DNA of 9,545 bases from Deltaproteobacteria bacterium (GTDB taxonomy: Bacteria; JAUYMQ01), in the NCBI GenBank assembly GCA_030698575.1, contig JAUYMQ010000131.1, forward strand, positions 1 to 9,545. Direction: 5' to 3'. The notes beneath the pieces were generated by a model. That model was not told the DNA's origin. It worked only from the letters and a program-made list of their open reading frames with translations, and searched no databases. Both the position numbers and the translations under genes were made by a program. Positions 1 through 9,545 of this stretch are shown piece by piece. The first letter of the stretch is position 1; each line of letters begins with the position of its first letter.

Positions 1-364
1 GATGACGGCCATGCCCAACTCGCCACCCGCCATTGCGGGCGTAGTCGATCTGCGAGGAGGTTTTATTCCGATTCTTGACATGCGCTGGCACACCGGGATC
101 GCGCCGGACCATGCCGGGCCGAAAGCGCGCATCATCGTGACGATCCTGCGCGGCAGGCTGGCGGGCTTGCTCGTCGACGAGCTGCTCCCGGTCATGCGCA
201 TTCCTGCGTCGGAAATGAAAGCGCCCCCGCGAATGGCAAAGGATCTCGGCTACGATTTTATCACCGCCATGTGTACGCGTGACGGCGATCTCTACATGCT
301 TATAAACGCGGACCGCATGCTCGACGACGTCGGCGGCGAAGCTCCGGCAGGAGTCCCGGCATGA
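1..364 (+). CDS. cheW: CheW-like chemotaxis scaffold protein, C-terminal part (5' end outside window)
   Basis: CheW joins MCP receptors to the CheA kinase in cytoplasmic signalling arrays. The visible 120 residues match the middle and C-terminal part of a CheW domain. [15 protein letters not shown] is the conserved 'P-N-x-P-x-x-x-G-V-x-x-L-R-G' stretch, followed by IPILDMR. Then come the second subdomain strands ([19 protein letters not shown]), a 'V-x-R-I-P' segment, and the final [12 protein letters not shown] strand-helix. An ATG lies at base 2, but a CheW domain needs roughly 30-40 more residues before this point, so that ATG is internal and the real start lies upstream of the window. The stop codon overlaps the MCP start (ATGA, bases 361-364), which indicates translational coupling and a shared operon. 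It could instead be the last CheW domain of a longer protein such as a CheV-like or multi-CheW protein. The family call is secure. Confidence 0.9.
349..353 (+). promoter_or_regulatory. Shine-Dalgarno AGGAG for the MCP gene, inside the cheW coding sequence
   Basis: AGGAG lies 7 bases before the ATG at 361, within the last codons of cheW. It supports that ATG as the MCP start and fits coupled translation through the ATGA overlap. Confidence 0.7.
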
Positions 365-2964
365 GCCAGAAAGCAAAGATAAACATCCAGACGAATCTCG
401 TGGTGTGGCCCGCGTTCGTCTCTCTCCTGGCGACGGTTCTCGTCACGTTCTTCGTGGTGAGCCTGATCCGGTTCGATCCGGATCAGGTCAAGCACATGCT
501 CCTCTTCGTGGCCGGCGTCTTCCCGCTGCTGTTCATTTCGTCCAGGGCGATAGTGCGCTCGCGCGAGCAGAGGATTATGCGCTACTGGAACGCGGTCCAG
601 GAGGGGAAGCCTCCCGCTGACGAGACGGAGGCGCGGCGGGTCTATACCCAAGTGATGAACCATCCCCGCTTCCTGCTGATCGTGGGTGTGGGCTTCTGGG
701 GCGCGGGAACGCTCCTGGTGGGCGCTTTCATGTTCGCCTTCGAGGGCATCAGCGGATTCGACTTCCTGAAAATCTGCTTTTCGGGGTTCAGCCAGGGCAT
801 CATCGCCAGCATCTTCATGTTCTACATCTCGAAGCAGTTCCTGAATCCGGTGCGGGCGTCCTTCCAGCGCTATCGGAGCATCCGCGGTTTCGGCGAGGGC
901 GTCATACGCATCGGCCTTCGCGCAAAGCTGATCACGACCTTCGTGTCGATCGTCTTCGTGACCCTCGCCTTCTCGGCGCTCATGTTCTACGAGCAGACCC
1001 AGCGGGCCGTCGAGCAGGCAAAGATGGAAAGCTCGCGGGCGGTGTTCGAAAGCCTGCGGTCGGAACTCTCCCGCCTCCCCGTGGACAAGGCTTCGAATCT
1101 GAATCTGGGCGCCCTCGCGGACCAGGCCGGCATGGAGCCGGGATCCGCTGTAGCGCTCCTCGATCAGGCAGGTAAGCGCCTGGCTTTTGCTGGCGACGCC
1201 CACGGTATCGCCGCCCTGCGCACGCGCGATGGGAGCGGAGACGCGCCCAACGGCCAGGTGATCTTCGGAAAAGGCGTGCCCGGCAAGCCATGGCGCCTGG
1301 CCCTCTACACCCCCACGGGCCTCGCCTCGCACGCCGCAACGGTGCTCCACCGCACCCTTGCGCTCCAGTTCTTCACGAGCCTTTCCATCGCCGTCGGACT
1401 GGCTCTCCTGGCGGCGAACGAGGTCAACCGGGCACTTCAGCGCATGGCGGAGTGGTCCAAGCGGATCGCGTCGGGTGATCTCACCACGCCCCTTCGGATC
1501 GAAAGCGAGGATGAGCTGGGTAGTCTCGCTGCGTCGCTTTCCGATATGTCATTCCGCCTTCGCGAAATGATCCTGCACGTGAAGGACAATACCAGCGGCG
1601 TCGAGGAAATGAGCGCCGAGGTGGCCACGATGAGCCAGGCGGTCATGGAGTCGAGTGATGAGCAGAGCTCGAGCGTGCTCGATGCGACGAGCGTTTTCGA
1701 GCAGATGAACGCGTCGATAAAGGGCATCGCAGAGCACACTGAGCACCTGAGCGTCTCGGCCGAGGAATCCTCCAGCTCGATCCTCGAAATGGGGGCGACG
1801 GTCGAGGAGGTCAGCGGAAACGTCGAGAGCCTGGGGCGCAGCGTCGATGAGTCGGTCTCGAGCATCGAACAGATGACCTCTTCGATTCACGAGGTTGCGC
1901 GAAACGTGGAGGGTCTGTCGGAGGTTGCGGAGGAGACAAACTGCTCGATGGAGGAGATGGCTGCGTCGATCCGGCAGGTGGAGGAGAACGCGAACGAGAC
2001 GCACAACCTCTCGGTCGACATGGTCAGGGCTGCCGAGACGGGGAGTGAGCGGGTGCTTGCCACGATCTTGGGCATCGAGTCCATTCGCACCGGTTCGGAA
2101 GAGGCGCAGCAGGTCATTACGAAGCTTGGCGCGCGCGCCGAAGAAATCGGAGAGATCCTGAACGTCATCGACGAGGTGGCCGAAGAGACCAACCTGCTCG
2201 CCCTGAACGCCGCCATCATTGCGGCCCAGGCAGGAGAGCATGGCCGGGGGTTCTCGGTGGTTGCGGACGAGATCAAGGATCTGGCGGACCGCGTGGGCAC
2301 GAGCACGAAGGAGATCGGCAAGCTGATCAAGGCGGTCCAGGACGAATCCGGAAACGCGATCATGGTTGTCAAGCGCGGAGCCGAGCAGGTCGTGGAGGGT
2401 GAGCGGCTGTCACGCGAGGCAGGAAGGGCGCTGGACGAGATCACCGCCAGCGCTCGCCGTTCGGGGGAGATGATCGGCGAGATCGCGCAGGCCAGCGCGG
2501 AGCAGACCAAGGGCTCCCGCTCGGTCGTCAACGCGATGGAACGCGTGCGGGAGATGGTCGCACAGATCAAAGGCGCGATGGTCGAGCAATCGCGAGGCTC
2601 CGAACGGGTCATGACGGCATCGATGTCCATGCGCGATGTGGCGCAGCAGGTGCGCGGGACGATCCTCGAGCAGGCGCGCGGATCGGGTCGCATCACGACC
2701 AGCATCGAGAACATCCGGGACATGGTGCAGCAGATCAACGGCGCAATTCAGGAGCAGCTGCGGGGGACCGAGCAGGCGGTGGTCGCTCTGGAGCACATCC
2801 GCGAACGCGCCGAGCAGAATCAGGACGCCGCGCTGAAGATGGGCGGTGTGGTCAAGGGAATGGTGTCCGAAGCGGACGTGCTCAAACAAGAAGTCGGTCG
2901 TTTCCAGCTCGGCGAGAGCACAGACGCTCCCGACGGATCGGCCGGAAACCAGGAGCCGGGCTGA
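361..2964 (+). CDS. Methyl-accepting chemotaxis protein with six predicted TM segments and a long repeat-built signalling hairpin
   Basis: Receptor that controls a CheA kinase through CheW; inner-membrane, 867 residues. Hydrophobic segments lie at about 14-36, 46-65, 103-127, 136-157, 188-210 and 332-352. Residues about 211-330, between TM5 and TM6, are the likely extracytoplasmic sensor region. A HAMP domain follows TM6 (about 353-405; [10 protein letters not shown] and EDELGSLA are typical). The cytoplasmic hairpin turns at about 608-617 ([10 protein letters not shown]), and [17 protein letters not shown] follows as in all MCPs. Each arm from HAMP to tip or tip to end is about 208 residues, roughly 30 heptads, far longer than the 36-heptad total of E. 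coli receptors. Both arms contain exact 28-residue repeats with methylation-like E-[EQ]-x-x-[AST]-[ST] motifs. The C-terminus ends NQEPG and lacks an NWETF-type CheR tether. The start is set by AGGAG at 349 and the ATGA overlap with cheW. Ligand unknown. Confidence 0.95.
1684..2019 (+). repeat. Four tandem 28-residue repeats, N-side arm of the MCP hairpin
   Basis: Protein residues 442-469, 470-497, 498-525 and 526-553 are four in-frame units of exactly 28 residues (four heptads, 84 bases each). In each, offset 5-10 carries a motif of the same shape: EQMNAS (447), LEMGAT (475), EQMTSS (503), EEMAAS (531). These resemble the MCP methylation consensus E-E/Q-x-x-A-S/T. The repeats are diverged at the DNA level, so this is an ancient protein repeat and not a recent duplication. 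Confidence 0.75.
2491..2826 (+). repeat. Four tandem 28-residue repeats, C-side arm of the MCP hairpin
   Basis: Residues 711-738, 739-766, 767-794 and 795-822 are four exact 28-residue units. Offsets 3-8 read EQTKGS (714), EQSRGS (742), EQARGS (770) and EQLRGT (798). A second shared motif lies near offset 19-24 ([28 protein letters not shown]). The unit length matches the four-heptad periodicity of the N-side repeats, so both arms appear to have grown by the same step. Confidence 0.8.
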
Positions 2965-3015: not shown

Positions 3016-4113
3016 ATGATTGTTGCGTGCCCCTCTTGCAAGGCGAAGTTCAGGATTGACGAAGGGCGGATCAAACCACCCGGTGTGCGCCTCCGGTGCG
3101 CCCGCTGCCAGAATCTGTTTGCCGTGCGCAAGCGCGTCGTGGAAAGCGCCGCGCCTGTCGGCCCCCCCAGGGAGAGCGTGGACCCGGCGCAAGGGAACGC
3201 AGCCGAAGGGAGGGGGCGAATACTGGTGGCCCACGGCGAGCCGGTTGTGGCGGCCGCGATGAGAGGGGCTCTCGAGAAGGCGAATTACGAAGTTCTGATT
3301 TCGGGGGACGGTGTCGACGCGCTCATGAAGATCCAGCGGGAGCGGCCCGGCGTGGCGGTGATAGATGTCGCCCTCCCGAAGATGTACGGCTTCGAGATTT
3401 GCGAGTTTCTCAAGCGCAACGAAAGCCTGCGCTACGTCAAGGTCATTCTCGTGGCGACTGAACACAACCAGGGGCGCTACAGGCGCACGCCCGAGAATTA
3501 TTACGGGGCGGATGACGTCGTCGAGGAGAGCGAGATCCCGGGCGAGCTGGCGGGCAAGGTCCACCGCCTGCTGCATGGCGGCGAAGATGCGGGCGCTACC
3601 GTGGAGCCGCCGGGGTCTGCGCCAGGTATTGACCATGAGGCCGCGGCCGGACTCGTCGAACCGGCGGCCGCCGAGATCGCGGCGCAGCCGGAAGAACGTC
3701 CTTTCGCAGAGCCGGAGGACCCGCTGCCCGAACCGGAGCGGGTCACCGCCGAAGATGATCCCCGGAAGGAAATGCGCGAGCGAGCCCGGAGGCTCGCACG
3801 CATCATCGTGAGCGACATCGCATTGTACAACCCCGAGATCGTTGAGCAGGGACTTCGATCGGGCGGTCTGCCCGCCCTCATCCGGGACGATCTCGAGGAG
3901 GGGTACAAGCTCTTCAGATCCCGCATCGACGAGGCAGTAGCTGCCGAGAGCGACTTCATTCGCGAGGCGCTCGACGCCTTCGTCGATCGCAAACGGCGTG
4001 ATCTTGGCATCCCCGACGACGCGGAGGCCGGGACAGATCCGGCTGATGACGAGCATGCGGTAGCCGATGATATTCCGTCGGCGGAATTCGGGACCGGTCA
4101 TGACGATTTTTGA
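3016..4113 (+). CDS. Zinc-ribbon protein with degenerate receiver domain and C-terminal helical domain
   Basis: 365 residues, cytoplasmic. Residues 1-38 are an MJ0042-type zinc ribbon: C5-P-S-C8 and C28-A-R-C31 are the metal ligands, with the typical 'CPxCxxxFxxxxxxxxxxGxxxRCxxC' spacing. A receiver fold occupies about 67-187 (RILVAHGEPVV to KVHRLL). D117 of AVIDVALP is the phospho-acceptor position and T148 of VILVAT the conserved hydroxyl. The Mg-binding acidic pair is replaced by H73-G74, and the conserved lysine of 'TKP' by E171 in GADDVVEESEIP, so normal phosphorylation is doubtful. An acidic, proline/alanine-rich linker (about 188-250) leads to a charged helical region (about 251-331) with RARRLARIIVSDIALYNPE. 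I recognise that segment as recurring in deltaproteobacterial zinc-ribbon and receiver proteins, but I know no assigned function. It lies between mcp and the HEAT gene, so an accessory role in this pathway is inferred. Biochemical role unknown. Confidence 0.85.
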   Translation: MIVACPSCKAKFRIDEGRIKPPGVRLRCARCQNLFAVRKRVVESAAPVGPPRESVDPAQGNAAEGRGRILVAHGEPVVAAAMRGALEKANYEVLISGDGVDALMKIQRERPGVAVIDVALPKMYGFEICEFLKRNESLRYVKVILVATEHNQGRYRRTPENYYGADDVVEESEIPGELAGKVHRLLHGGEDAGATVEPPGSAPGIDHEAAAGLVEPAAAEIAAQPEERPFAEPEDPLPEPERVTAEDDPRKEMRERARRLARIIVSDIALYNPEIVEQGLRSGGLPALIRDDLEEGYKLFRSRIDEAVAAESDFIREALDAFVDRKRRDLGIPDDAEAGTDPADDEHAVADDIPSAEFGTGHDDF

Positions 4114-6160
4114 GAAGGTCGAGGAAGCGCTGAACTGCGGCGACGAAGAGGCCCGGAGGGAGGCCGTGGAGTCTCTCTTCCAGGCCTCCGGGCCCGACGT
4201 CCTGCGCCTGCTCATCCGGGCGACCGGCGATGAGAGCTGGCGCGTCCGGAAGACCTCGGTCGAGGCCCTGCTGACTTACACCGAACCCGCCGAGGCGATC
4301 GATGCGCTCATTCACGGGCTCCATGCCGAGGACAATGCCGGACTCAGAAACGCTTGCGTCGAGACCCTCATACGCATGGGCGAGATGGCGGTGCTCGCCT
4401 TGCTGCCCCACGTCTCCTCGCCGGATGAAGACGTCAGGAAATTCGTGATCGATATTCTCGGCGGAATCGGCGACGAACGCGCCGTTCCGGCGCTGGTGGG
4501 GGCGATGGGCGACTCGAACGAGAACGTTCGGGCGACCGCCGCGGAGAACCTGGGGCTGATCGGCAGTGAAGCCGCCGTCGCGTCCCTCCTCGACGCCCTT
4601 CGGCGCGACGACCTGCAGCTTCAGTACGGCGCTCTGAGGGCCCTGTTCACGATCGGGCGGTCCGTCCCGCTGGATGCGATCACGCCGCTCCTGCAGAAGC
4701 CGCTTCTCCGGAAGCCCGTCTACGAATGTCTCGGGAACATCCGCGATCTTGCGGCCGTCGAAGTCCTGGTGAAGGGACTGGGCGAGCGCTCGACGGCCAG
4801 CCGGGTGGCCGCGGCCGGCTCGCTCATGAAGCTCTATCACGGTTCCGGTGACCGGGGTTTCCGGGAGGCGCTGGGTGAGCGCATCCGGCGAAACGTCCCC
4901 GCAGCCGACGTCGAGGCGCTCCTGCAGGATCTCGATTCGGCCGATCTGAACCGGCGCATGTCCGTGGCCCAGATTCTCGGGTTTCTCGGCGACGGAGCCG
5001 CAACCTTGCCGCTCCTGGAAGCCGCCGCCGACGAGCCCGTTTCGGCTTTCGCCCTCGACGCGATCGTGCGCATCGGCCGGCCGGCAAGGGACATCCTTGT
5101 TCAGAACTTCGGTGAGCTGCCTGACGAGCAGATGGCGCTGGCCTGCACGGCGCTCGGGTGCCTCGGCAGCGCATCCGCAATCCCTTCCCTTCGCCTTGCG
5201 ATCGACAACGAGTCGCCCGGGGTCCGGGCGGCAGCGGCCGTTGCGCTGGGCCGGCTGGACGCCATTGAATCGCTCTCCCGCCTGACGGCGCTTCTCGCGG
5301 ACGATTTCCCGGGGGTCCAGGAAGCCGCGGTAAAGTCGATCAAGGACCTTGCGAGCGTCCACGGACGCGAGGTGCTGGAGGCCGTTGCATCCATGACGCG
5401 CTCGTCCGGGGAGTTCATCCGGGCAAACGTCGTGCGGGTGCTCGGCGCGGTCGGGCTCGATGAGGGGATCGAGCGTGTGCTGGATGCCATGCGCGACGAG
5501 AGCGCCGCCGTGCGGCAGGCTGCCCTCGAGGCGCTTGGCCGGCTTGAATTCGCAAGGTTCAGGGACACCTTTCAGCTGGCCCTGACGGACGAGAGCGCCG
5601 AGGTGCGCGCTATCGCCGCCGATCTGTGGGGACGCAGCGGCGATCCGCGTGCGGCCGAGAATCTGATGCTCATGCTGGATCACGAGGATCTCTGGGTCCG
5701 CTGCGCCGCGCTACGGGGCCTGGGGGAGTGCGGGGACGCGTCCCGGGCCGATGCTCTGCGGCTGGCGCTGGCCCAGGCGGACGGGATCGCGCTCATCACG
5801 GGGCTGGAAGCGCTTGTTACGCTGGTCGGGGAGAACGCCGCGGAGGATCTGATCAAGGCGCTCGATCGCGACGATCCCGAAGTTGTCCGCGTAGCGCTTC
5901 AGGGGCTCGAGCGCGTCGGATCGCCGAGGGAGCAGGAATGCCTCGGCCGCGCGCTCTGCAGGCTTCTTGGACATGAAGATTCGGACGTGCGCCTGATGGT
6001 TGCGCGGTTCGCAGGAATTCACCGGGTCCTCGAGACGCTTCCCGCGCTCACCGCGCGGCATGAGGGTGAAGGGGACCAGGCGGTTCGGGAGATGCTCGGC
6101 TATGCGATCGAAAGGGTTGGCGGCCGGGATGCGGAAACGCGCCGAAGAGTAGCTAGCTAA
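4100..6160 (+). CDS. HEAT-repeat (PBS-lyase-type) protein, probable chemosensory scaffold
   Basis: 686 residues made almost wholly of about 20 HEAT-like helical pairs of roughly 31 residues. The second helix of many begins with a V-R-x-x-A-x-x-x-L-G signature: VRATAAENLG, VRAAAAVALG, VRQAALEALG, VRAIAADLWG, VRCAALRGLG. No signal peptide, membrane segment or catalytic domain is visible, so it should be a cytoplasmic alpha-solenoid for protein binding. An in-frame ATG at 4067 would add 11 basic residues. I prefer the ATG at 4100 because MTIFEKVEEALNCGDEEARREAV begins directly with repeat-like sequence and a weak GGGA lies 6 bases upstream. This start overlaps the preceding gene by 14 bases, suggesting coupled expression. 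HEAT proteins are known in some deltaproteobacterial che clusters (for example Myxococcus che7). The partner here is unknown; the receptor, CheR or the pseudo-receiver are candidates. The central repeats (about 190-345) are more diverged than the ends. Confidence 0.88.
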   Translation: MTIFEKVEEALNCGDEEARREAVESLFQASGPDVLRLLIRATGDESWRVRKTSVEALLTYTEPAEAIDALIHGLHAEDNAGLRNACVETLIRMGEMAVLALLPHVSSPDEDVRKFVIDILGGIGDERAVPALVGAMGDSNENVRATAAENLGLIGSEAAVASLLDALRRDDLQLQYGALRALFTIGRSVPLDAITPLLQKPLLRKPVYECLGNIRDLAAVEVLVKGLGERSTASRVAAAGSLMKLYHGSGDRGFREALGERIRRNVPAADVEALLQDLDSADLNRRMSVAQILGFLGDGAATLPLLEAAADEPVSAFALDAIVRIGRPARDILVQNFGELPDEQMALACTALGCLGSASAIPSLRLAIDNESPGVRAAAAVALGRLDAIESLSRLTALLADDFPGVQEAAVKSIKDLASVHGREVLEAVASMTRSSGEFIRANVVRVLGAVGLDEGIERVLDAMRDESAAVRQAALEALGRLEFARFRDTFQLALTDESAEVRAIAADLWGRSGDPRAAENLMLMLDHEDLWVRCAALRGLGECGDASRADALRLALAQADGIALITGLEALVTLVGENAAEDLIKALDRDDPEVVRVALQGLERVGSPREQECLGRALCRLLGHEDSDVRLMVARFAGIHRVLETLPALTARHEGEGDQAVREMLGYAIERVGGRDAETRRRVAS

Positions 6161-6178
6161 CCCGGCGGGAGCGCCGGG
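6161..6178 (+). other. Perfect 7-bp GC hairpin with GGAG tetraloop in the HEAT-cheR gap
   Basis: CCCGGCG (6161-6167) and CGCCGGG (6172-6178) are perfect inverted repeats separated by GGAG. It starts on the base after the HEAT gene stop and ends 14 bases before the annotated cheR ATG. No T-tract follows, so it is not an intrinsic terminator. It could stabilise RNA or modulate cheR translation; GGA in a hairpin loop resembles a CsrA/RsmA site, which is speculative. Confidence 0.5.
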
Positions 6179-6192
6179 GCGGGTGGTCAAGA

Positions 6193-7095
6193 ATGGCTGT
6201 CGTGCCGAAATTCGAAAGTCTTCTGGAGGGCTCTGGCCTTGAGGCCAGGCTCCAGATGAATGACGAGGACTTCAAGCTTCTCCGGGATTTCATCCGCGCT
6301 GAGAGCGGGATCCATTTCGGGGAAAGCTCAAAGCCGATCCTCGAGAAGCGGATGTCCAGGCTCGTCCGCGCGCGCCGGATCCGCAGTTACCGCGACTACT
6401 ACTACTTCCTCCGTTACGACAAGCGGAAGGATGAAGAGATGGATTCGGTCATCGACGCCGTCACGACGAACGAGACTTACTTCTTCAGGGAAGAGCGTCA
6501 GCTGAAGGCGTTCAAGGACGAAATTCTGCCCGAACTTCACGCGGAGAAGCTGTCGCGGGGCGACCGGACTCTCCGCATCTGGAGCGCCGGTTGCTCGAGC
6601 GGAGAGGAGCCGTACACGCTCGCAATGCTCATCATGGAATCGAAGCTCTTCAACGATTGGCGCGTGGAAATATTCGGCAGCGACATCAACCGCCGGGTGC
6701 TCCAGATCGCCAGGAAGGGGAGTTATGGCAACTCATCCTTCCGGGTCACGGAGAAGGGCTACATCGATCGGTACTTCAAGGAAGACGGCGGAAGGCGGCA
6801 GATAAGTGAAGATGTCAAGAAGCTCGTCAACTTCAGCTACATGAATCTCGTCGACCGACCAAAGATCAATCTCCTCCGCACGATGGACGTCATCTACTGC
6901 CGGAACGTCATCATATACTTCGAGCTATCTACCAAGAAAGCGTTGATAGAGAGCCTGGGCGAGAGGCTGGCGCCGGGCGGGTTCCTCATGCTCGGCCATT
7001 CTGAATCTCTCATAAACATCACGTCTTCTTACGAGCTGAGGCACCTGAAGAACGATCTGGTTTACCAGAAACCCAGGAAGCGGCGCATTTTCTGA
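6193..7095 (+). CDS. cheR: CheR, SAM-dependent MCP glutamate methyltransferase
   Basis: Transfers methyl groups from S-adenosylmethionine to receptor glutamates, giving adaptation opposite to CheB. 300 residues, cytoplasmic. The N-terminal helical CheR domain covers about 23-85 (DFKLLRDFIRAESGI). The catalytic domain shows TTNETYFFRE (91-100), the SAM-binding loop SAGCSSGEEPYTLAM (131-145), the acidic strand end FGSDIN (161-166), MDVIYCRNVIIYF (231-243) and LAPGGFLMLGHSESL (259-273). No TPR tail is present, unlike FrzF-type enzymes. The local MCP has no pentapeptide tether, so docking must be direct or through a partner. The start is uncertain: ATG 6193 has a weak GGTGG 6 bases upstream, whereas ATG 6256 (M22) would still give the full CheR domain and directly follows a nested inverted repeat (6223-6255). 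cheB follows after 37 bases. Confidence 0.95.
   Translation: MAVVPKFESLLEGSGLEARLQMNDEDFKLLRDFIRAESGIHFGESSKPILEKRMSRLVRARRIRSYRDYYYFLRYDKRKDEEMDSVIDAVTTNETYFFREERQLKAFKDEILPELHAEKLSRGDRTLRIWSAGCSSGEEPYTLAMLIMESKLFNDWRVEIFGSDINRRVLQIARKGSYGNSSFRVTEKGYIDRYFKEDGGRRQISEDVKKLVNFSYMNLVDRPKINLLRTMDVIYCRNVIIYFELSTKKALIESLGERLAPGGFLMLGHSESLINITSSYELRHLKNDLVYQKPRKRRIF
6223..6255 (+). other. Nested inverted repeat ending directly at an in-frame ATG within 5' cheR
   Basis: Outer arms CTGGAG (6223-6228) and CTCCAG (6250-6255) enclose inner arms CTGGCCT (6233-6239) and AGGCCAG (6242-6248). Together these give 13 base pairs with a 4-versus-1 base internal bulge. The next base begins ATG (6256), codon 22 of the annotated cheR. 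If that ATG is the real start, this is a leader hairpin adjacent to the initiation codon; otherwise it is an in-gene structure encoding the poorly conserved N-terminal tail. Confidence 0.45.
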
Positions 7096-7100
7096 GCCAC

Positions 7101-7120
7101 TTCCGGGGAGAGAGCCGGGA
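7101..7120 (+). other. Small hairpin with GGA-containing loop in the cheR-cheB gap
   Basis: TTCCGG (7101-7106) pairs with CCGGGA (7115-7120) as five Watson-Crick pairs and one G-T (G-U) pair around an 8-base loop GGAGAGAG. It lies 3 bases before the cheB Shine-Dalgarno. It is weak alone and notable only because the other gaps hold similar structures. Confidence 0.3.
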
Positions 7121-7123
7121 TAC

Positions 7124-7127
7124 GAGG
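7124..7127 (+). promoter_or_regulatory. Shine-Dalgarno GAGG for cheB
   Basis: GAGG is followed by a 5-base CGGGA spacer before the ATG at 7133. It supports this start, which places the receiver domain at residue 11, as usual. Confidence 0.6.
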
Positions 7128-7132
7128 CGGGA

Positions 7133-8287
7133 ATGGCGAAAGGCAACGGAAATCGGCAGGGCATTCGGGTTCTGGTGATCGACGATTCGGCTTACAACCG
7201 CCGGACGATCACGAAGATGCTCGAACGCTCGCCCTTCATCGAGGTCGTGGGAACGGCGAAGGACGGCGAGGAAGGATTGCGCCGCGCGCTGGACCTGCGA
7301 CCGGATCTCGTGACGCTCGATCTCGAAATGCCGAAGCTCGACGGCTTCAGCCTGCTCCGGGTGCTCATGGTGCGGCAGCCCACGCCGGTTCTCGTGGTCA
7401 GCTCGCAGAGCGAGGGGGAGAACGTTTTCAAGGCCCTCGAGCTGGGCGCCGTCGATTTCATCTCGAAGCCCACCCGTGGAATTTCCAGCGAACTCGAAAC
7501 GATCGGGGACGAGCTTGTCGGAAAGGTGCTGTCGATCAAGCAACTCAAGCTCGAAAATGCCCAGCACCAACTTGATTACGCCGCGAGCCGTGTCAGGGAC
7601 GGCGCGAAATGGGCTTCGACGGCGATGGCGGAAAACGCCGCCCAGCCGCGATGGACGCCCGGGGTCTTCAAGTTTTTCGCCATCGGTTCCTCGACGGGCG
7701 GGCCCGGCGCGATCACCTCCATCCTGCGCACCATCCCGGCCGATCTGCCGGCCGCGTTCGTCGTGGCGCAGCACATGCCTCCCGGCTTCACACGGCCCTT
7801 TGCGGAGCGGCTCGACAAGTTCACCGGGCTCGAGGTTCGAGAGGCGAAGGACGGGGATGCCATACGGCCGGGGAGAGTCCTCATCGCGCCAGGCGGGAAG
7901 AACCTGACCCTCGTGCGCCGGGGCACGAAAGTGGTGACAGCCCTGGCCGACAGGGTCGAGAGCGATCTCTACGTTCCCTCGGTGAATGCCCTCCTTTCCT
8001 CGGCTTCGAAGATCTATGGCGGCGACTGTGTAGCCGTGATCCTCACCGGCATGGGTGATGACGGCATGGAAGGCGTGAGGGAGATAAACAAGCGGAACGG
8101 CTTCACGATCGCCGAATCAGAGGAGACCAGCGTTATTTTCGGAATGCCCAAGAAAGTCATCTCGACGGGGGTCGTTGATCGGGTGCTGCCGCTCTGGAAG
8201 ATAAGCGACGCCATCGTCGGCTTTTTCACGCCGCGGGACGATTCCCCGAAAGGCGCGGAGAGATCCGGCGCGGAGGGGTCGCCATGA
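7133..8287 (+). CDS. cheB: CheB, receiver-regulated protein-glutamate methylesterase/deamidase
   Basis: Removes methyl groups from MCP glutamates and can deamidate glutamines; active when its receiver is phosphorylated by CheA. 384 residues, cytoplasmic. The receiver domain (about 11-130) is intact: acidic pair D17-D18 (VLVIDDSA), phospho-acceptor D63 (TLDLEMPKLDG), S90 (VLVVSS) and K112 (FISKPT). A linker of about 130-178 follows. The esterase domain (about 179-366) has nucleophile S187 in AIGSSTGGPGA, H214 in VAQHMPPGFT and D310 in ILTGMGDDGMEG, which match the E. coli S164/H190/D286 triad. The tail (about 367-384) is polar and likely disordered. The last base of the stop is shared with the ATGA start of the coiled-coil/GAF gene, so the two are translationally coupled. 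Unlike the receiver domain of the upstream zinc-ribbon protein, this one should be phosphorylatable. Confidence 0.97.
   Translation: MAKGNGNRQGIRVLVIDDSAYNRRTITKMLERSPFIEVVGTAKDGEEGLRRALDLRPDLVTLDLEMPKLDGFSLLRVLMVRQPTPVLVVSSQSEGENVFKALELGAVDFISKPTRGISSELETIGDELVGKVLSIKQLKLENAQHQLDYAASRVRDGAKWASTAMAENAAQPRWTPGVFKFFAIGSSTGGPGAITSILRTIPADLPAAFVVAQHMPPGFTRPFAERLDKFTGLEVREAKDGDAIRPGRVLIAPGGKNLTLVRRGTKVVTALADRVESDLYVPSVNALLSSASKIYGGDCVAVILTGMGDDGMEGVREINKRNGFTIAESEETSVIFGMPKKVISTGVVDRVLPLWKISDAIVGFFTPRDDSPKGAERSGAEGSP
8272..8276 (+). promoter_or_regulatory. Shine-Dalgarno GGAGG for the coiled-coil/GAF gene, inside 3' cheB
   Basis: GGAGG lies 7 bases before the ATG at 8284 and is the strongest ribosome site in the window. 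It supports the overlapping ATGA start and suggests this protein is made at a rate at least comparable with CheB. Confidence 0.75.
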
Positions 8288-9120
8288 GCGCGCCGAAGCG
8301 GCCCGAAGACAAGGCCCACCAGTTCGACAGGGCTGAGGAATTCCTTCAGATGTTCAAGAAGGGGGCTGAGTTCACCCAGGAGCTGCTGCGCGAGAACGAG
8401 CGGCTTCGCTTCAGGGCGATTGAGATAGAGGAACTGCTCAAGGACCCCGCGCGCAAAGGGTCGGGCAGGGAGGGAGCAAAGCTCATCACGCGGATCGAGG
8501 AGCTCGAAAAGGAACGCCAGGAGCTCCTGAGGAAGTATGAGGAAGTAGAGTCGGAGAACAAGGATTTCGCCAGGCGGTATCTCGAAATAGAGGAGGAGAA
8601 CAACAACCTCGCCAACCTCTATGTCGCCAGCTACCAGCTCCACTCCACGCTCGATTCCGACGAAGTCTTGCAGATCATCATCGAAATCATCATCAACCTG
8701 ATCGGCGCCGAGGTCTTTGCCATCCTCCTGCTCGACGAGAAGACCGGCGAGCTGAAACCGGTCGCCAGCGAGGGCATTGGCAAGGGGGAGATCCCGCCCG
8801 TGCGTCCCGGCGACGGAAGGATCGGCCTGGTGGCGAAGGCGGGCGAGAACTACTTCGCGGAGCACGTTCCCCGGGACGGCCATGTGGATACGAATGAGCC
8901 GATCGTCTGCATCCCGCTGAGCATCAAGAAACACGTCATCGGGGTCATTGTGATCTACAAGCTGCTCCAGCAGAAACCGGAGTTCACGGAGCTGGATCAC
9001 GAGCTTTTCACGCTGCTCGCAGGCCATGCGGCCACGGCAACCTTCGCCTCGCGGCTCTACTCCGAGTCGGAGCGAAAGCTTTCCACCATTCAGGGTTTCA
9101 TCGACCTGCTGACGAAATGA
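8284..9120 (+). CDS. Coiled-coil plus GAF-domain protein, probable chemosensory accessory
   Basis: 278 residues, cytoplasmic, no membrane segment. Residues about 15-118 are strongly helical and charged with heptad character (AEEFLQMFKKGAEFTQELL, then ELEKERQELLRKYEEVES), broken by a short basic Gly/Ser-containing stretch (about 54-64). This predicts a dimeric coiled coil. Residues about 119-265 are a GAF domain: SYQLHSTLDSDEVLQIIIEI entry helix, IGAEVFAILLLDE strand, GDGRIGLVAKAGENYFAEHV, then CIPLSIKKHVIGVIVIYK and the closing ELDHELFTLLAGHAATA helix. GAF domains bind small molecules or mediate dimerisation; no heme, Fe-S or chromophore signature is evident, although C209 lies in the binding-fold strand. 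No kinase, cyclase or output domain follows, so the protein is a sensor/adaptor lacking its own output. Coupling to cheB by ATGA and the following cheY argue for a role in this pathway. Ligand unknown. Confidence 0.88.
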   Translation: MSAPKRPEDKAHQFDRAEEFLQMFKKGAEFTQELLRENERLRFRAIEIEELLKDPARKGSGREGAKLITRIEELEKERQELLRKYEEVESENKDFARRYLEIEEENNNLANLYVASYQLHSTLDSDEVLQIIIEIIINLIGAEVFAILLLDEKTGELKPVASEGIGKGEIPPVRPGDGRIGLVAKAGENYFAEHVPRDGHVDTNEPIVCIPLSIKKHVIGVIVIYKLLQQKPEFTELDHELFTLLAGHAATATFASRLYSESERKLSTIQGFIDLLTK

Positions 9121-9175: not shown

Positions 9176-9545
9176 ATGGCCTACAAGATATTGATCGTCG
9201 AGGACTCGCCCACGATGCGCCAGGTGCTCAGCTTCGCCCTGAAGCGGCTCCGGCGGGTCGAGATCGTCGAGGCGCAGGACGGCGTGGACGGCTTGAAAAA
9301 GATCTGCCAGGAAAAATTCGACCTGGCGCTGATCGACATCAACATGCCGCTCATGGACGGTCTCAAGCTCGTGAAGCTCATCAGGAGCGATCCTCGCTGC
9401 AAGGACGTCCCCATTGCGATGATCACGACGGAGTCGGCGCGCGAGGACCGCGAGCGCGCGCTCCATCTCGGCGCCAACGAATATCTCACCAAGCCGGTCG
9501 AGCAGCGGGACATCCTTCGCGTCGCGCGGAAGCTCCTCAAGATCG
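9176..9545 (+). CDS. cheY: Single-domain CheY-type response regulator (3' end outside window)
   Basis: The ATG at 9176, preceded by purine-rich GGGAAGAG, opens a frame that runs to the window end without a stop. It gives 123 residues, about the full length of a CheY receiver. All catalytic positions are present: acidic pair E9-D10 (ILIVEDSPTMR), phospho-acceptor D54 (ALIDINMPLMDG), T84 (PIAMITTES) and K106 (EYLTKP). It should accept phosphate from CheA and act as a diffusible output or phosphate sink. Only a few residues may be missing, or the receiver may be the first domain of a longer protein; the window cannot tell. The opposite strand here also has open frames, but the conserved receiver motifs settle the + strand reading. 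Confidence 0.95.
   Translation, partial: MAYKILIVEDSPTMRQVLSFALKRLRRVEIVEAQDGVDGLKKICQEKFDLALIDINMPLMDGLKLVKLIRSDPRCKDVPIAMITTESAREDRERALHLGANEYLTKPVEQRDILRVARKLLKI

Follow-up and report, generated by a model that had tools for sequence, protein, structure and literature searches.

The che8 cluster of Myxococcus xanthus was noted in a 2008 genome paper to be conserved in Anaeromyxobacter and in Geobacter sulfurreducens (PMC2330069), and the beta-group cluster 5 of Geobacter was reported to be conserved among deltaproteobacteria, including M. xanthus, at sites that do not lie beside flagellar genes; preliminary data linked it to the extracellular matrix (PMC2577667). The beta group is also found in five genomes of Desulfuromonas, where 64H receptors are known (PMC8235581). 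In G. sulfurreducens the gene order is cheW GSU2220 (esnB), ATPase GSU2221 and cheA GSU2222 (esnC) (PMC5585712); judging from this order, these genes would belong to cluster 5. Without esnB or esnC, growth on electrodes is impaired and growth on Fe(III) oxide is not, and a genetic phenotype, the requirement for electrode biofilm growth and diguanylate cyclase signalling, is known only in this species (PMC5585712). Disruption of esnB raises a cGAMP reporter, as does loss of the diguanylate cyclase EsnD (PMC8835794). In another M. xanthus system, Che7, the HEAT protein Cpc7 binds CheY7 (PMC11514114).

The DNA analysed here (the window, 9,545 nucleotides) is the whole of contig C422 from a draft genome of 4.13 Mb in 653 contigs. 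Its left end was joined to contig C18 by an exact 112-bp overlap and its right end to contig C545 by an exact 125-bp overlap. The preliminary description had placed cheA just outside the window, and it was indeed found on C18, which also supplied, upstream, a gene encoding a DUF4388 (PATAN-like)-receiver protein, cheY1 and the 5' part of the cheW pair; leuS was added downstream from the neighbouring contig. The joined operon reads DUF4388-receiver, cheY1, cheA, cheW, cheW, mcp, zinc-ribbon pseudo-receiver, HEAT, cheR, cheB, coiled-coil/GAF, cheY2. It is preceded by fabD, fabG, fabF, glyA, nrdR, ribH, nusB and a gene resembling the M17 peptidase N-terminal part (M17N), and followed by leuS, holA and murJ. 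Because the intergenic distances from cheY1 to cheY2 range from -47 to +55 bp (8 bp between cheA and cheW), the che genes look like a single transcription unit; 204 bp separate cheY2 from leuS. Three non-core genes sit between mcp, cheR, cheB and cheY, woven among the core genes as first described. This arrangement is far beyond chance, the identical order being repeated in dozens of genomes.

CheA (695 aa) has Hpt, dimerisation, ATPase and CheW-like domains in Pfam, and its phospho-His motif HSLKG is intact. Two cheW genes follow, encoding 278 and 171 aa; the second (2..364, + strand, as are all genes of the window; PF01584, E=7e-19) is truncated at its 5' end in the window and reaches its full length once joined to C18. 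CheR (6193..7095; PF01739, E=1e-55, and PF03705) has intact motifs, and CheB (7133..8287; PF01339 and PF00072) combines an active receiver with the methylesterase motifs GSSTGG, QHMP and LTGMGDDG. CheY2 (9176..9545; 124 aa, the last residue and the stop codon being on C545; PF00072, E=2e-29) has the canonical site E-D/D/T/K. In alignments inspected by eye, the acidic and phospho-Asp residues were canonical in CheY1, CheY2, the CheB receiver and the DUF4388-receiver protein, which is 606 aa long and carries a long C-terminal extension.

The mcp gene (361..2964; PF00015 and PF00672) encodes a receptor with a HAMP domain, about six transmembrane segments and a 64H-like hairpin, whose arms were estimated at about 32 heptads each by a by-eye calibration against the 36H receptor of E. 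coli. The tips of the in-cluster receptors, in relatives as in the window, read NAAIIAA instead of the usual NAAxEAA, Ile replacing the trimer-contact Glu. This tip and the 64H-like arm lengths are common to the window receptor and to loci L034, L069-L078, L112, L156 and L177.

The first accessory gene (3016..4113) encodes a zinc ribbon (PF13717), a pseudo-receiver (PF00072) and a C-terminal helical domain (ARRLARIIVSDIALYN). Its initial reading as a pseudo-receiver was borne out: the acidic pair is lost, being H/N plus E/S, and the active-site Lys is replaced in nearly all relatives (by Glu in 36 of 37). The phospho-Asp position holds Asp in 32 of the 37 and N or S in the other five. The structure model of the domain has no helix alpha-4, and its top PDB matches (Foldseek) include the pseudo-receiver of FrzS. 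The protein thus resembles FrzS in having, in the model, a receiver fold without the full set of phosphorylation-site residues, though the Asp is mostly retained. The C-terminal helical domain also occurs in the same genome as a stand-alone protein of 88 aa (L218:1486-1752, G000:C585), encoded between genes for an HtrA-like protease and a pseudouridine synthase.

The second accessory gene (4067..6160, with an in-frame ATG at 4100 as the likelier start) encodes a HEAT-repeat solenoid (PF13646, E=1e-73). Its PDB matches were mostly designed alphaRep solenoids, uninformative on function, and its PADLOC matches were set aside as generic solenoid matches. In one draft genome (L035:9618-11567, - strand), HEAT repeats and CheR form a single ORF of 649 aa, pointing to a contact between the two proteins; the HEAT part is shorter than usual in this one case, which may reflect a deletion or an assembly error. 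The third accessory protein (8284..9120; PF13185), made of a coiled coil and a GAF domain, is among the most conserved of the operon, with 52-68% identity to homologues in the same slot. The nearest solved structure is the cAMP-bound GAF domain of 5w10, which suggests, rather than demonstrates, a cyclic-nucleotide ligand.

When 386 genomes were searched with a CheA profile, about 30 loci scored highly, and gene order was alike in the neighbourhoods of most of them. A second scan, of one genome per species and with an alignment of the CheA P2 region as query, gave 476 confirmed cheA relatives; the best 80 of these were mostly from Geobacteraceae and other Desulfuromonadales, together with Myxococcota (Enhygromyxa, Corallococcus, Paraliomyxa) and some Nitrospirae MAGs. 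Duplicates and rows outside the class in the CheA tree were left out of the class counts. Accessory genes were counted in the 71 class loci with at least 8 kb downstream of cheA; these loci were picked by best score, so that the counts describe the chosen set and not frequencies across bacteria, and they are lower bounds, as genes broken by frameshifts or contig ends are missed. HEAT was present in 63 of the 71 loci, cheB in 65, cheR in 54, the pseudo-receiver in 45 and the GAF gene in 41. The preliminary description had presented the three accessories as part of a possible extended chemosensory module and had named their co-occurrence in other genomes as a check: all three were found together, in a fixed order, in 36 loci, and in none of seven loci outside the class that were fetched in the same way. 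Their conservation inside the chemosensory cluster therefore stands; they are nevertheless not one obligate unit, as HEAT is the sole accessory in 18 of the 71.

Adjacency counts agree with this order: cheY1-cheA was found 91 times, cheA-AAA 68, pseudo-receiver-HEAT 46, HEAT-cheR 56, cheR-cheB 57 and cheB-GAF 41. The DUF4388-receiver gene is the first of the operon in most relatives. An AAA ATPase gene lies between cheA and cheW in 57 of 76 class loci, and is absent from the Myxococcaceae-type loci and from the window operon; HEAT is the only accessory kept in the Myxococcaceae-type loci examined. In many of the Geobacter and Desulfuromonadales loci L102-L174 a further cheY separates the two cheW and the AAA ATPase gene follows cheA; the window operon has neither. 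Two other loci with a class-like cheA (L090 and L091) encode several large MCPs and none of the three accessories. The slot with ribH-nusB(-M17N) upstream and leuS downstream, where the operon is often located, also in distant genomes, is present here and is shared on one side or the other by L036, L071, L084, L085, L087 and L213, and not by all members.

The window CheA was placed by the CheA tree within the class, alongside Geobacteraceae, Myxococcota and others, and, with weak support, near uncultured deltaproteobacterial and Myxococcota MAGs. Its residues 171-179, LTEYEEHRL, fit the P2 motif of the class, [TS]EYEE[HS]R[LF]; the shorter EYEE core was dropped as a strict class marker because it is also present in a few rows outside the class. 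In Myxococcus-family loci the class CheA is encoded after ribH-nusB-M17N and before HEAT, cheR, cheB and cheY, and in one of them (L213) CheB and CheY, of 345 and 126 aa, have the lengths listed for CheB8 and CheY8a (PMC3945109). The GSU2220-2222 order is that of the named Geobacter loci examined (cheA-AAA-cheW). Three lines, namely the lengths and slot of L213, the cheW-ATPase-cheA order of Geobacter and the reported conservation of che8, thus agree, and the operon, which follows the order cheY1-cheA-cheW-cheW-...-HEAT-cheR-cheB-...-cheY2, matches the class known as Che8 in M. xanthus and as the beta group in Geobacter. The proposal that this set defines a new, distinct output class was consequently not upheld, as such systems had already been noted in M. 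xanthus, Anaeromyxobacter and Geobacter. The alpha group of Geobacter, characterized by an HD-domain protein, was ruled out as a match because the operon contains no HD gene.

Orthology with M. xanthus Che7, where Cpc7, the partner of CheY7, links aggregation with sporulation, was also considered. Both systems include a HEAT gene (PMC11514114), and Che7 groups with Che8 in the M. xanthus tree (PMC3945109). However, a single CheW and a single CheY are tabulated for Che7, whereas the two cheW, the two cheY, the M17N/nusB-leuS slot and the protein lengths all fit Che8; furthermore, most Myxococcaceae-like genomes have a single cheA match at E<=1e-120, located at the nusB slot where examined. On this indirect evidence we consider the orthology quite improbable, and retain the assignment to Che8/beta group.

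The genome of the window gave no match to FlhA or FliM, an absence that is not proof as the assembly is 91.6% complete and in 653 contigs. It encodes several T2SSE ATPases, two of which, PilB/PilT-like, lie side by side on C264, and gave 15 GGDEF matches. A second chemosensory cluster is present in this genome (L009, G000:C4, 2674-7768), composed of cheR, a short MCP of about 44H, cheW, a cheY-like gene and a cheA of 668 aa. FliM was absent from 19 of 26 class-bearing genomes. Given the lack of FlhA and FliM matches and the PilB/PilT-like ATPases here, and the related genomes devoid of FliM, the output is probably not flagellar. Firm grouping with a standard flagellar class, next to flagellar genes, was the other finding that, according to the preliminary description, would overturn its reading; no flagellar genes adjoin the operon, and this check did not overturn it. 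The full core set of cheA, W, Y, R, B and mcp would suit a flagellar chemotaxis cluster with passenger genes, but the fab/rib/nusB and leuS/holA/murJ flanks, together with the FlhA and FliM results, make this explanation hardly credible. Most of the bacteria or lineages that carry the class are ones for which a flagellar output is not the obvious one.

The best candidate for an output regulator is the DUF4388-receiver protein, DUF4388 being a domain that we take to be the PATAN domain of cyanobacteria. This candidacy is based on cyanobacterial PATAN-receiver proteins, which bind and act on the pilus motor PilB1 (PMC7690835). Alternatively, the accessories could serve a transcription- or stress-control output through orphan regulators, and not pilus or surface control: CheA8 and CheA7 of M. 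xanthus have been linked to the phosphorylation of MXAN_4468, an orphan regulator acting on the transcription of groEL (PMC9040617), and a zinc ribbon is a possible binding module for nucleic acid or protein. The electrode-growth and cyclic-dinucleotide phenotypes of esnB and esnC in Geobacter argue against such an output, as does the position of the PATAN-like receiver at the head of the operon in most relatives, and we judge it unlikely.

We regard it as probable that the window covers the 3' part of an entire Che8/beta-group operon. The receptor array that this operon encodes would control type IV pili, attachment to surfaces and c-di-GMP, and the triad would act as adaptors on the array side. 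The long membrane receptor, CheW and CheA would form the array; CheA would phosphorylate CheY1, CheY2, CheB and the DUF4388-receiver protein, and CheR and CheB would reset the receptor. For the source organism, we infer that these three, and not a flagellar motor, receive the output, and we infer roles for the three accessories: CheY~P and CheR may dock on the HEAT solenoid, the pseudo-receiver may serve as an adaptor that does not depend on phosphorylation, and a cytosolic, cyclic-nucleotide-like signal may reach the array through the coiled-coil/GAF protein. A more specific proposal, possible but on balance doubtful, is that a 64H-type array independent of flagella has the triad as its dedicated structural partners, the solenoid forming a bridge between CheR and CheY~P, and a cyclic-nucleotide signal entering through the GAF protein. 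If true, a scaffold without a described counterpart in the chemotaxis systems studied would integrate output and adaptation.

In conclusion, this is a real, conserved and flagellum-independent chemosensory operon of a known kind, and Che8 and the beta group (esnB/esnC), names that come from separate literatures, designate one operon class. The class is little studied and part of an electrode-sensing network; the triad is absent from textbook chemotaxis, and its order is kept across several phyla. As far as found in the literature, it is new to show explicitly that the class includes the three accessories across lineages, and to extend the class beyond Geobacter and myxobacteria: our search for papers on the triad as such returned none, and no role is assigned to the three conserved accessories in the literature found. 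They can now be tested in the genetically tractable Geobacter and Myxococcus, where the published deletions found concern cheW and cheA only.

Compared with the cyanobacterial PATAN-CheY regulators PixG, PixE and LsiR, the DUF4388-receiver protein shares a PATAN-like domain joined to a receiver and a gene associated with a chemotaxis-like system (PMC7690835); it differs by its length of 606 aa and its long C-terminal extension. Named Geobacter and Desulfuromonadales loci of the beta group contain, like the window operon, cheR, cheB, HEAT, pseudo-receiver and GAF genes. Unlike it, they have the AAA ATPase and, in many loci, the extra cheY between the two cheW, and the Geobacter clusters are mostly devoid of mcp and use an unlinked 40H receptor, EsnA. 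The input may therefore differ from that of Geobacter, as the window operon has its own 64H-like mcp; the mcp-less cluster is a trait of the Geobacter subset and not of the class, since 16 of 76 class loci carry an mcp inside the cluster. Che7 of M. xanthus likewise pairs a HEAT protein with a chemosensory system, and differs in cluster content as judged from its published description. Che8 of M. xanthus (MXAN_4751-4759) shares with the window operon the cheY-cheA-cheW-cheW-...-cheR-cheB-cheY order and the HEAT gene, and Myxococcus-family loci share nusB-M17N upstream; in contrast, the latter have no mcp, pseudo-receiver or GAF gene in the cluster, whereas the window operon has all three.
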